A DNA stretch of 58,164 bases from Phycisphaerae bacterium (lineage in GTDB: Bacteria; Planctomycetota; Phycisphaerae; SM23-33): assembly GCA_011050235.1 (NCBI GenBank), contig DRGC01000024.1, positions 1 through 58,164 of the forward strand, written 5' to 3'. Below are positions 11,809 through 29,172 of this stretch, in pieces (position 1 is the stretch's first letter; each line of letters starts with the position of its first letter). A program made the translations under genes and the position numbers. The notes under the pieces are model-generated. The model was not told the origin of the DNA. It was given only the letters and a program-made list of their open reading frames with translations, and did no database searches.

Positions 11809-11994
11809 GCAACGCCTCCATGGGGCTGGGCGGCTAGGTCCCCTCATGTCACTGGACAGTTGGTCTTTCGTCGGGGTCCATTTCCGGCTGGAATCAGATC
11901 GCCTTTTATTGCCATGGCTTACGATCCAAGTCTTTGCGACAGTTAGTTTTGGGGACACGTTTTAAGCACTTACAAAAGCTTGACATGAAACATC

Positions 11995-12023
11995 TTGCCA
12001 CTGGGGCGGGTTGAGGGGATAAT
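11995..12023 (+). promoter_or_regulatory. Sigma-70 promoter for the sigma factor gene
   Basis: TTGCCA (11995-12000), 17-base spacer, GATAAT (12018-12023). It lies 78 bases upstream of the GTG start at 12102. The rest of the 290-base gap shows no gene. Confidence 0.6.
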
Positions 12024-12101
12024 GGTCTCAGTGGGGCCTGACCTCGGGGATCGAGCGGTTCTCTGGGTAGTGGTTGTAAGCTTTGCGGAAAGGACTTGGC
12101 C

Positions 12102-13781
12102 GTGAGGAAGTACCAAAACAAGTCTATGCAGAAGCTTTCTGCCGAACTGACCGCCGGGCTGGCCCGCCTCCGCAAGAAATACATAGACGCGGCTGAGGAA
12201 CTGTTCCGCATTATCGACCCGGCCCAGGAATACCCATTTGACTTCGTTCTATTTCGGGTTACGGGGTACGGCGGCGGGGCGGCCGATGGCGGCGAGGACA
12301 AATTGACGGGCCAGTCGCTTCGACAGGACCTGCTCCTGCTGATGCTCGACATCTGCGACAGCACCGAATTGCGGGTGAGCGACTATGACGAGGGGGCCTG
12401 CGATACGGCCGAACTGGCCAAGCGGCAGAAGGTCTCGACCAAGACCATCCAGCGATGGCGAAAGGCCGGTCTGCCGGCCCGGCGGCTCATCTTCCCGGAC
12501 GGCAAGCGCCGGATCGCGTTCCTCGAAAGCTCCGTGCTGTGGTTTACCCAGACCCGCCCCGCACAGATCGATCGGTCGGCTCGGTTTACCCAGATGAGCG
12601 ACCAGGAGCGCGATCAGATCCTGCGGTGGGCCCGGAGGCTCGTGGCGGTCAAGCATTCGTGCCTCTCGGACGTCTCCAAGGAACTCGCCGCCCGCACCGG
12701 TCGGGCCGTCGAGACGATCCGCTACACGATCCGGCGGCACGATCAGGATCACCCGCACCAGGCGATCTTCGCACAGTTGTCCGGCGCCCTGACCGATGGC
12801 GACAAGCAGAGCATCTACCGGGCGTTCCTGACCGGTGCGCCCGTGCCGACGCTGGCCAAGAAGTTCCAGCGGACGCGAGGCAGCATCTACCGCGTCGTCA
12901 ACGAAATGCGGGCCCAGCAACTGCTCGACCGCCCGATCGACTACATTCACAATCCGCAGTTTGACCTGCCCGGCGCCGATGCGGCGGTCCTGGCGGACGA
13001 GATCCGCTCGGATCCGCCGTCGAATAGGCCGACGGTCGCGGCCCCGGCCGCCGGGGACTTGCCGCCTTATCTGCGGTCGCTCTACGGTGTGCCGCTTCTG
13101 GGCCGCGACGAGGAACGGGACCTGTTCCGCCGGTACAATTACCTCAAGCACAAGGCCGACAGGCTGCGCCGGTCGATCGATCCGAATCGCATTCACACCC
13201 GCGACCTCCAGGAGGTCGAGCGGCTCCTGCTGCAGGCCAACAGCATCAAGAATCGCGTCATTCGCTCGAATCTTCGGCTGGTCGTGTCGATCGCCAAGAA
13301 ACACGCCGGCGGCGCGCAGACGTTGTTCGAGCTGATCAGCGACGGCAACGTCTCGTTGATGCGAGCGGTGGAAAAGTTCGACTACGCCCGCGGCAATCGA
13401 TTCAGCACGTATGCATCCTGGGCCATCATGCGAAACTTCGCCCGCTCGGTCCCCAAGGAGCAGATTCAGCGAGACCATTTCGCCACGGGCAACGAGGAGG
13501 CCCTGGACATCGCCGCCAGCCTGCAGATGTATGAATCGCAGGAGATCAAGGTCAGCGAACTTCGCGAGAGTATCGACGCGGTGCTGACCCACCTGACGGC
13601 GACCGAGCGAACGATCCTGGTGGGGCACTTCGGCCTGGACGAGAAACACGATACGAAGACGCTCGAACAGCTCGCCGGGCGGCTGAGCCTGAGCAAGGAA
13701 CGCGTCCGCCAGATCGAAATCCGCGCACTGGAGAAACTGCGGACCGTCCTCTACTCGCGCAAATCGGAGCTGATGAGCTAG
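12102..13781 (+). CDS. RNA polymerase sigma-70 family factor with extra N-terminal DNA-binding half
   Basis: The GTG at 12102 is favoured (559 residues) because GGAAAGGA ends 7 bases upstream; TTG at 12096 is the alternative. The first 310 residues are not found in ordinary sigma factors. They hold a MerR/excisionase-like helix-turn-helix (DTAELAKRQKVSTKTIQRW, about residue 100) followed by two more helix-turn-helix-like segments (AVETIRYTIRRHDQ and VPTLAKKFQRTRGSIYRVVN). Then come sigma regions 1.2 (YLRSLYGVPLLGRDEERDLF), 2 (SNLRLVVSIAKKHAGG to GNRFSTYASWAIMRNFARSV, about 388-450) and 4 (LTATERTILVGHFGL to LSKERVRQIEIRALEKLR, about 498-550). Only about 50 residues separate regions 2 and 4, so region 3 is reduced or lost. 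Probably an alternative, RpoD-related factor. Confidence 0.88.
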   Translation: MRKYQNKSMQKLSAELTAGLARLRKKYIDAAEELFRIIDPAQEYPFDFVLFRVTGYGGGAADGGEDKLTGQSLRQDLLLLMLDICDSTELRVSDYDEGACDTAELAKRQKVSTKTIQRWRKAGLPARRLIFPDGKRRIAFLESSVLWFTQTRPAQIDRSARFTQMSDQERDQILRWARRLVAVKHSCLSDVSKELAARTGRAVETIRYTIRRHDQDHPHQAIFAQLSGALTDGDKQSIYRAFLTGAPVPTLAKKFQRTRGSIYRVVNEMRAQQLLDRPIDYIHNPQFDLPGADAAVLADEIRSDPPSNRPTVAAPAAGDLPPYLRSLYGVPLLGRDEERDLFRRYNYLKHKADRLRRSIDPNRIHTRDLQEVERLLLQANSIKNRVIRSNLRLVVSIAKKHAGGAQTLFELISDGNVSLMRAVEKFDYARGNRFSTYASWAIMRNFARSVPKEQIQRDHFATGNEEALDIAASLQMYESQEIKVSELRESIDAVLTHLTATERTILVGHFGLDEKHDTKTLEQLAGRLSLSKERVRQIEIRALEKLRTVLYSRKSELMS

Positions 13782-13784
13782 GCC

Positions 13785-14157
13785 GGGCGTACGTAAGTCC
13801 GTAGTGATCGAGCTGTCAGTTCAGGCCCGAAGGGCCGTCTTGCTTAGCCCAGGGCGAAGCCGTGGGTGTGAGCGCAGCGAGCAGCCGAACGGCGAGCCCT
13901 GGGGAATGGACGGGCCAAAGGGGAAAGCCCCAACGGGGCGCCTTGACGGGCCCGATTTCGCTGGGTGCTGCGATGCGATGGCCTCAACGAGAGTCTCGAT
14001 CGCATGGTCGACAAAGCCAAGACGCCCCTTACGGGGCTTGCCGCAATGCCGACGATAACCCAGGGCTTGGCCTGACGGCCTACGCCCTGGGCTAAGCAAG
14101 GGACCCCGTTGGGGCCCAACGATCAACAAGGCGAAGCAAGAACTGGCCGGACAGGTC
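13785..14157 (+). repeat. Dispersed GC-rich hairpin element, copy A
   Basis: About 373 bases that recur at 28798-29172 with high identity along the whole length except a variable middle of roughly 60 bases. Hairpins can be read throughout: GGCCC-GAA-GGGCC, an outer CCCAGGGC/GCCCTGGG pair near each end, GCCCC-AAC-GGGGC, GCCCC-TTAC-GGGGC, and GGACCCCGTTGGGGCC. It fills the gap between two convergent genes. All reading frames in it are by-products of the palindromes. Confidence 0.85.
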
Positions 14158-28797: not shown

Positions 28798-29172
28798 CCC
28801 GGCGTTACGTAAATCCGTAGCGACCGAGCCGTCAGTTCAGGCCCGAAGGGCCGTCTTGCTTAGCCCAGGGCGAAGCCGTGAGTGTGAGCGCAGCGAGCAG
28901 CCGAACGGCGAGCCCTGGGGAATGAGCCGGCCAACGGGAAAGCCCCAACGGGGCGCCTTGAGGGGCCAGATCGCGCCGGCTGCTTGGATGCGATGGCCTC
29001 AATGATGGTCTCATGCCCATGATCGACAAAGCCAAGACACCCCTTACGGGGCTTGCCGCAACACCGACGATAACCCAGGGCTTGGCCTGACGGCCTACGC
29101 CCTGGGCTACACAAGGGACCCCGTTGGGGCCCAACCATCAACAGGGCCGCGTAATACCTGGCCGGACAGGTC
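28798..29172 (+). repeat. Dispersed GC-rich hairpin element, copy B
   Basis: About 375 bases, highly similar and in the same orientation to copy A at 13785-14157. It has the same series of hairpins (GGCCC-GAA-GGGCC, CCCAGGGC/GCCCTGGG, GCCCC-AAC-GGGGC, GGACCCCGTTGGGGCC) and ends with CTGGCCGGACAGGTC. Like copy A it fills a gap between two convergent genes. No terminal duplication or transposase is seen. Confidence 0.85.

Follow-up and report, generated by a model that had tools for sequence, protein, structure and literature searches.

A planctomycete sigma-70-family factor with three predicted helix-turn-helix domains ahead of region 1.2 and no region 3

Sigma factors are usually classed by which of regions 1.1, 1.2, 2, 3 and 4 remain. 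The primary factors (group 1) have regions 1.1 and 3, and the group 4 (ECF) factors consist of sigma-2 and sigma-4 only, with a mass of about 20 kDa. Here, we describe a sigma factor from a Phycisphaerae bacterium which fits none of groups 1, 3 and 4, and which is encoded in a contig of 58,164 nucleotides (DRGC01000024.1, assembly GCA_011050235.1; the whole of this stretch is called the window below). The likeness to RpoD/SigA and RpoS lies in regions 1.2, 2 and 4, which align over residues 315–453 and 481–550; the new factor differs from them in lacking regions 1.1 and 3, in having altered residues at the contact to promoter position −12, and in an N-terminal half of 310 residues that bears helix-turn-helix (HTH) domains. 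Regions 1.1 and 3 of the group 1 factors are thus both absent, and the protein does not fit group 3 either, as sigma-3 is missing by profile and by model. With group 4 it shares a short linker between regions 2 and 4 without sigma-3, as well as a match to the superfamily model TIGR02937, but it possesses region 1.2 and about 310 more residues (559 vs about 200 aa), and its regions 1.2–2 are closer to the RpoD type. The first of its HTH domains (HTH1) shares fold and profile similarity with the winged HTHs of MerR, excisionase, BldC and gpNu1; however, it is followed by a second one (HTH2), is fused to a sigma factor and is not accompanied by a MerR effector domain, so that the protein is not a member of the MerR family. 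Finally, short planctomycete sigma factors (the C6 factor of the same genome and L137–L143) also have regions 1.2, 2 and 4 and no region 3; they share the hinge and the sigma part with the long form, and the tree places them among the long forms, but they lack the N-terminal module N1 and the HTHs. The parts are known already, and it is their combination and its conservation that constitute a new element. In the literature searched we found no description, name, regulon or experiment for this type of sigma factor.

Membership of the 559-aa protein in the sigma-70 family is well supported at the sequence level. Pfam models of region 2 (PF04542, residues 387–449, 50.7 bits) and region 4 (PF04545, residues 495–547, 43.9 bits) both matched above their cut-offs, and weak HTH matches were obtained in the N-terminal half. 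Region 1.1 (PF03979) and region 3 (PF04539) gave no Pfam match to the protein and do not figure in the list of families that most of the 43 aligned members share, whereas the separate RpoD of the same genome, used as a positive control in a comparable scan, matched regions 1.1, 1.2, 2, 3 and 4 and has a standard region 2. Among the NCBIfam models TIGR02937 scored above cut-off; no curated equivalog or subfamily model did so, TIGR02937 being the sole one to pass among the best 25 of 52 matches. The mechanical open reading frame begins with a TTG at 12096, two codons before the GTG start codon, at which the ortholog starts align (Table 1). The product is 29–62% identical over its full length to proteins of 42 other genomes, and its being kept over the whole length excludes chance. 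Its immediate neighbours in the window, a gene for a 732-aa protein upstream and an enolase gene downstream on the opposite strand, are uninformative on its role. A dispersed repeat of about 273 bp lies just downstream of the sigma gene and recurs elsewhere in the window and on other contigs, in about 16 near-full genomic copies of 78–100% identity; with imperfect 41-nt inverted arms around it, it has the appearance of a MITE-like or structured element.

Table 1. Features of the sigma factor gene, its product and its surroundings (positions are those of the window).
Feature	Residues	Position (strand)	Remarks
Ribosome-binding site AAGGA		12090..12094 (+)	7 nt upstream of the start codon
Sigma-70-family gene	1-559	12102..13781 (+)	GTG start codon at 12102; stop at 13781
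Module N1	1-98	12102..12395 (+)	acidic; helices and three short strands; conserved YPxDF..TGY and DL motifs
HTH1	99-151	12396..12554 (+)	winged, MerR/excisionase/BldC/gpNu1-type; recognition segment VSTKTIQRWRKAGL
HTH2	163-216	12588..12749 (+)	three-helix HTH with GRAVETIRYTIRRHD; 2rn7, Z 7.7, 2.2 A over 56 residues
HTH3	227-278	12780..12935 (+)	three-helix, generic sigma-4/Mor-like; recognition segment RTRGSIYRVVNE
Hinge motif pIDYIhNPqFDlPgA..VL	279-298	12936..12995 (+)	also in short paralogs without HTHs
Sigma region 1.2	318-357	13053..13172 (+)	from alignment and superposition on sigma-A
Sigma region 2	386-449	13257..13448 (+)	PF04542; core-binding LISDGN..LMRAVEKFDY intact
R444	444	13431..13433 (+)	equivalent of E. 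coli Q437, contact to promoter position -12
Disordered linker replacing sigma-3	453-482	13458..13547 (+)	pLDDT <50; no PF04539 match
Sigma region 4	484-550 (484-556 in the model)	13551..13751 (+)	PF04545; standard -35-reading helix SKERVRQIE
Candidate promoter TTGCCA-N17-GATAAT		11995..12023 (+)	window version of the conserved CTTG-N20/21-GATAA promoter
Weak upstream element		11953..11962 (+)	GGACACGTTT, vs consensus GGACACYTGG
Dispersed repeat, ~273 bp		13838..14110; 28854..29125	
Inverted arms of the repeat, 41 nt		13819..13859; 14080..14120	imperfect

An earlier note on this DNA, made from the sequence, had claimed that region 3 is missing, that only about 50 residues separate regions 2 and 4, and that about 310 extra N-terminal residues hold an excisionase-like HTH and two further HTH-like segments. 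We built an AlphaFold2 model of the whole chain on 43 orthologs (mean pLDDT 84.4, pTM 0.52, the latter value reflecting domains joined by flexible links); the N-terminal half alone, about residues 1–310, reached a mean pLDDT of 91.0. In the model the parts follow each other as N1, HTH1, HTH2, HTH3, hinge, regions 1.2 and 2, disordered linker and region 4, with residues of about 300–317 poorly ordered. The N-terminal half comprises one winged HTH (99–151) and two three-helix HTHs (167–216 and 232–276 in this model), as the note had it, and also the N1 module, which it had not described. The Pfam matches of regions 2 and 4 are about 45 residues apart, no sigma-3 domain is present in the model, the profile search revealed no ordinary region 1.1 in the N-terminal half, and neither profile nor structure an intact region 3, so that the described architecture stands. 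Reading the N-terminal half as an ordinary region 1.1 was rejected on the lack of a PF03979 match, which the RpoD of the same genome does have. No named fold was found for N1 by Pfam or by structure searches in which N1 was part of a larger model.

HTH1 matched the HTH_17, MerR and HTH_BldC profiles, its score of 19.9 being below the Pfam cut-off of 28.2, and its structure matched gpNu1 and BldC (Foldseek) and the small terminase 7lwr (Z 7.3). HTH3 gave Pfam matches to Mor and HTH_38 and resembled many HTHs, sigma region 4 among them, at Z 7–8; such values were obtained for HTH2 as well and represent a common level. We also considered HTH2 and HTH3 as a relocated sigma-3 and sigma-4, but profile comparison indicated generic HTH similarity only (HTH2 vs RpoD sigma-3, 6.7% probability; HTH3 vs the protein's own sigma-4, 63%). 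In the sigma part, residues 318–453 (regions 1.2–2) can be fitted onto sigma-A with a deviation of 2.9 A across 132 residues; the Pfam model of region 1.2 itself gives no match, and the phmmer alignment with SigA covers residues 315–453.

Conservation was computed by column over 103 orthologs and expressed as mean information. The recognition segments of HTH1, HTH2 and HTH3 have 3.37, 3.17 and 2.72 bits, respectively, in comparison to 3.34 bits for region 2, 2.48 for region 4, and 1.15 and 1.8 for linkers. HTH1 and HTH2 therefore have recognition helices conserved on a par with sigma region 2, and within the HTHs conservation peaks on recognition helices, not on the general surface. All three HTHs are basic (net charge +8, +3 and +5). 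The core-binding and melting residues of region 2 are retained (equivalents of F427, Y430 and W433), its core-contact motifs being nearly invariant. In comparison to E. coli sigma70, however, region 2 of the protein carries W434→A, Q437→R and T440→A. The Q437-equivalent is K in 72 and R in 31 orthologs (103/103 in total), and alanine occupies the T440-equivalent in 102/103 and the W434-equivalent in 94/103. Substitutions of Q437 and T440 are reported to alter base preference at −12, and the known suppressors Q437H and T440I accept C at this position (PMC2613000). K or R at the Q437 position may allow a G to be read at −12; the substitution by itself does not prove this, as the suppressors at Q437/T440 accept C.

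The same architecture recurs across the class and in Planctomycetia, so it is no one-off fusion. Matches to the N-terminal half were obtained in 53 of 60 relatives and, among the 198 class genomes that were at least 90% complete, in 192, nearly always as a single copy; phylum-wide, 61 of 294 genomes matched at E <= 0.001, some of them weakly or partially. Full-length orthologs were found on contigs named as Phycisphaerae, Sedimentisphaerales, Pirellulaceae, Rhodopirellula, Schlesneria, Fuerstiella, Gemmataceae and Thermogutta. Near-universal presence in the class together with full-length orthologs in Planctomycetia marks a core gene of the class that is found in Planctomycetia too. Chloroflexota matches cluster with RpoD/RpoS-like factors in the tree and were rejected as the same type on the basis of this placement. 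Within the data examined the sigma factor type appears specific to Planctomycetota. L103, from a record that bears the title 'Candidatus Kuenenia stuttgartiensis', clusters closely with Pirellulales sequences, and the record is probably mislabelled or a mixed bin.

Truncated relatives are of several kinds. Some Pirellulales copies are devoid of N1 (L101, L103, L110, L115); in L135 and L136 HTH3 is the sole HTH left; and the hinge-only copies mentioned above, including the 330-aa C6 factor, have neither N1 nor HTHs. In family f66 (L203:2021-3133) N1 is fused directly to a sigma part with regions 1.2, 2 and 4, without HTHs, which suggests that it is the sigma part, and not the HTHs, that N1 serves. 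Members of family f5 (L062:7779-9362 and L063:7555-9120) keep the N-terminal half and region 4, with a region 2 that profiles do not recognise; in L209, of the same family, region 2 was judged degenerate by eye. Since f5 keeps the N-terminal half despite a degenerate region 2, this half probably has a function separable from polymerase binding. In a tree whose deep forks are weak, in which some short rows sit on long branches and several short forms are weakly placed, a number of truncated forms lie inside long-form clades and the group without N1 is united at 100/100, which suggests that truncated forms arose by loss from a long ancestor.

Upstream regions of the sigma gene were analysed in 60 non-redundant Phycisphaerae, with expectations taken from the loci's own background. 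The promoter TTGAC-N17/18-CGATAAT was present in 9/60 regions vs 0.06 expected, CGATAAT in 19/60 vs 1.1, and [GA]GACAC[CT]T[GA]G on the strand of the gene in 9/60 vs about 0.2 (other strand 1); these comparisons are post hoc, motif discovery and scoring having used one and the same set of phylogenetically related sequences, with no correction. Of 45 regions upstream of the sigma gene 12 contain CGATAAT, in comparison to none of 21 upstream of rpoD. Genome-wide, the strict promoter had 49 matches in 20 genomes (about 2.5 per genome), and the reversed control had 5. In five families it lies ahead of the sigma gene, this gene being the main recurrent target, and in two genomes (G039 and G043) the sigma gene is its sole site. 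The full-consensus TATAAT pattern is also rare in those genomes, yet it is commoner overall than the CGATAAT form, which thus does not look like the standard −10 of the class. A shared regulon of CGATAAT sites was rejected: beyond the sigma gene there was one related downstream pair only (L163/L185), and both of these sites lie under a long opposite-strand ORF. In Planctomycetia no enrichment of the CGATAAT promoter upstream of the sigma gene was seen, though the −12-contact residue is the same; the GGACAC element occurs near the gene 6 times vs 0.9 expected, mostly on the other strand. In three Sedimentisphaerales-like loci (L121, L122, L129) GGACACTTGG is placed at the likely start site, right behind a TAAAAT/TAGAAT-like −10; L121 (8951) and L129 (2278) have extra copies of it elsewhere.

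We consider it moderately probable that the protein is an alternative sigma factor with a built-in, promoter-proximal DNA-binding array, autoregulated and with growth-linked targets; we infer the DNA binding of the HTHs, GGACACYTGG as their site, the action on the factor's own gene and the growth-linked targets. Regions 1.2 and 2 would attach to core polymerase and open the DNA at −10, region 4 would read an ordinary TTGAC-type −35, and the short flexible linker would stand in for sigma-3 in an ECF-like manner. The three HTHs, placed on a flexible hinge ahead of region 1.2, would bind an extra non-palindromic site near the promoter; the array would in this way anchor the holoenzyme and pick promoters as a separate activator does, making up for the lost sigma-3 contact. 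Region 2, with K or R at the −12 contact, would accept a G at −12, and a factor that reads −12 G promoters would transcribe its own gene. The earlier note had suggested that the protein reads a DNA site of its own in addition to the promoter boxes, or that the N-terminal half chooses promoters. Conserved basic HTHs, family f5 and the nearby GGACACYTGG element speak for this suggestion, which is thus supported in part; the tie between the element and the protein is one that we infer.

It is possible, but in our estimation unlikely, that the conserved promoter is read by RpoD and GGACACYTGG is bound by a different regulator, with no autoregulation. The −35 and the spacing are canonical and the region 2 of RpoD is of the standard kind, which suits a promoter read by RpoD, and the shift of GGACACYTGG in position and orientation relative to the gene among clades suits a separate regulator. 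However, rpoD itself is devoid of this promoter form, and the −12 change goes together with K or R at the −12-contact residue. As to a separate regulator, the operator-like element recurs near the sigma gene and is not enriched genome-wide: a large GGACACYTGG regulon was rejected after 39 genome-wide matches gave no excess over reversed controls, and so, with a 3'-extended pattern that is perhaps too strict, a regulon beyond the sigma gene was not seen.

Somewhat less likely still, the N-terminal half could be regulatory or autoinhibitory, binding sigma-2/sigma-4, core polymerase or another partner, with regions 2 and 4 alone choosing promoters. Some HTH folds bind proteins, and the acidic N1, joined to a sigma part without HTHs in f66, agrees with such a role; the basic charge of all three HTHs and the peak of conservation on their recognition helices argue against it. 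A non-working sigma factor, i.e., a regulator that binds DNA and keeps its sigma domain as a relic, is very improbable; the unrecognisable region 2 of f5 speaks for it, but here and in most of the class region 2 scores above its Pfam cut-off and has nearly invariant core-contact motifs.

The growth-linked part of the preferred reading, that of an alternative sigma factor with its own DNA-binding array, comes from genomic context and published expression. At 9 Pirellulales/Planctomycetales loci the sigma gene directly precedes a tRNA-Thr-Tyr-Gly-Thr-tuf-tRNA-Trp cluster (tuf confirmed in seven; secE-nusG-rplKA in several, where the contig reaches). In a microarray study of Rhodopirellula baltica (PMC2754498), RB12251, listed as an 'RNA polymerase specialized sigma factor' (567 aa, pI 9.4), was repressed by heat, cold and salt along with the genes for EF-Tu and for ribosomal proteins. 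The Rhodopirellula ortholog in our set (L092) has 556 aa and a pI of 9.1, and RB12251 is probably an ortholog of the sigma factor, judged by length and pI. As hints, adjacency to the tuf cluster and the expression of RB12251 suggest that the role may be growth-linked. No partner gene was co-conserved phylum-wide: the sigma gene lies in no conserved operon, and its neighbours recur within clades only. With respect to a cognate anti-sigma factor, clustering of the neighbourhoods yielded no recurrent small downstream partner. In 22 Planctomycetia loci, e.g., L079:2500-3960 (-), the sigma gene is immediately preceded by a divergently transcribed gene of family c1 (about 450–520 aa), and the one member scanned had no Pfam match.

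In a more ambitious reading a single polypeptide, core to the class and to part of the wider phylum, would be both sigma factor and activator: the three tandem HTHs would read a composite upstream site, allowing the loss of sigma-3, K or R would shift the −12 preference to G, and the factor would drive its own CGATAAT promoter and a growth-linked regulon. We regard this version as tentative and rather doubtful. As far as the searched literature goes, a nearly universal, single-copy sigma factor of a large bacterial class has been undescribed. Its natural truncations (without N1, without HTHs, with HTH3 only, or with a degenerate region 2) let the role of each part be tested directly, and if the HTHs bind DNA, the protein would exemplify a natural fusion between activator and sigma factor.
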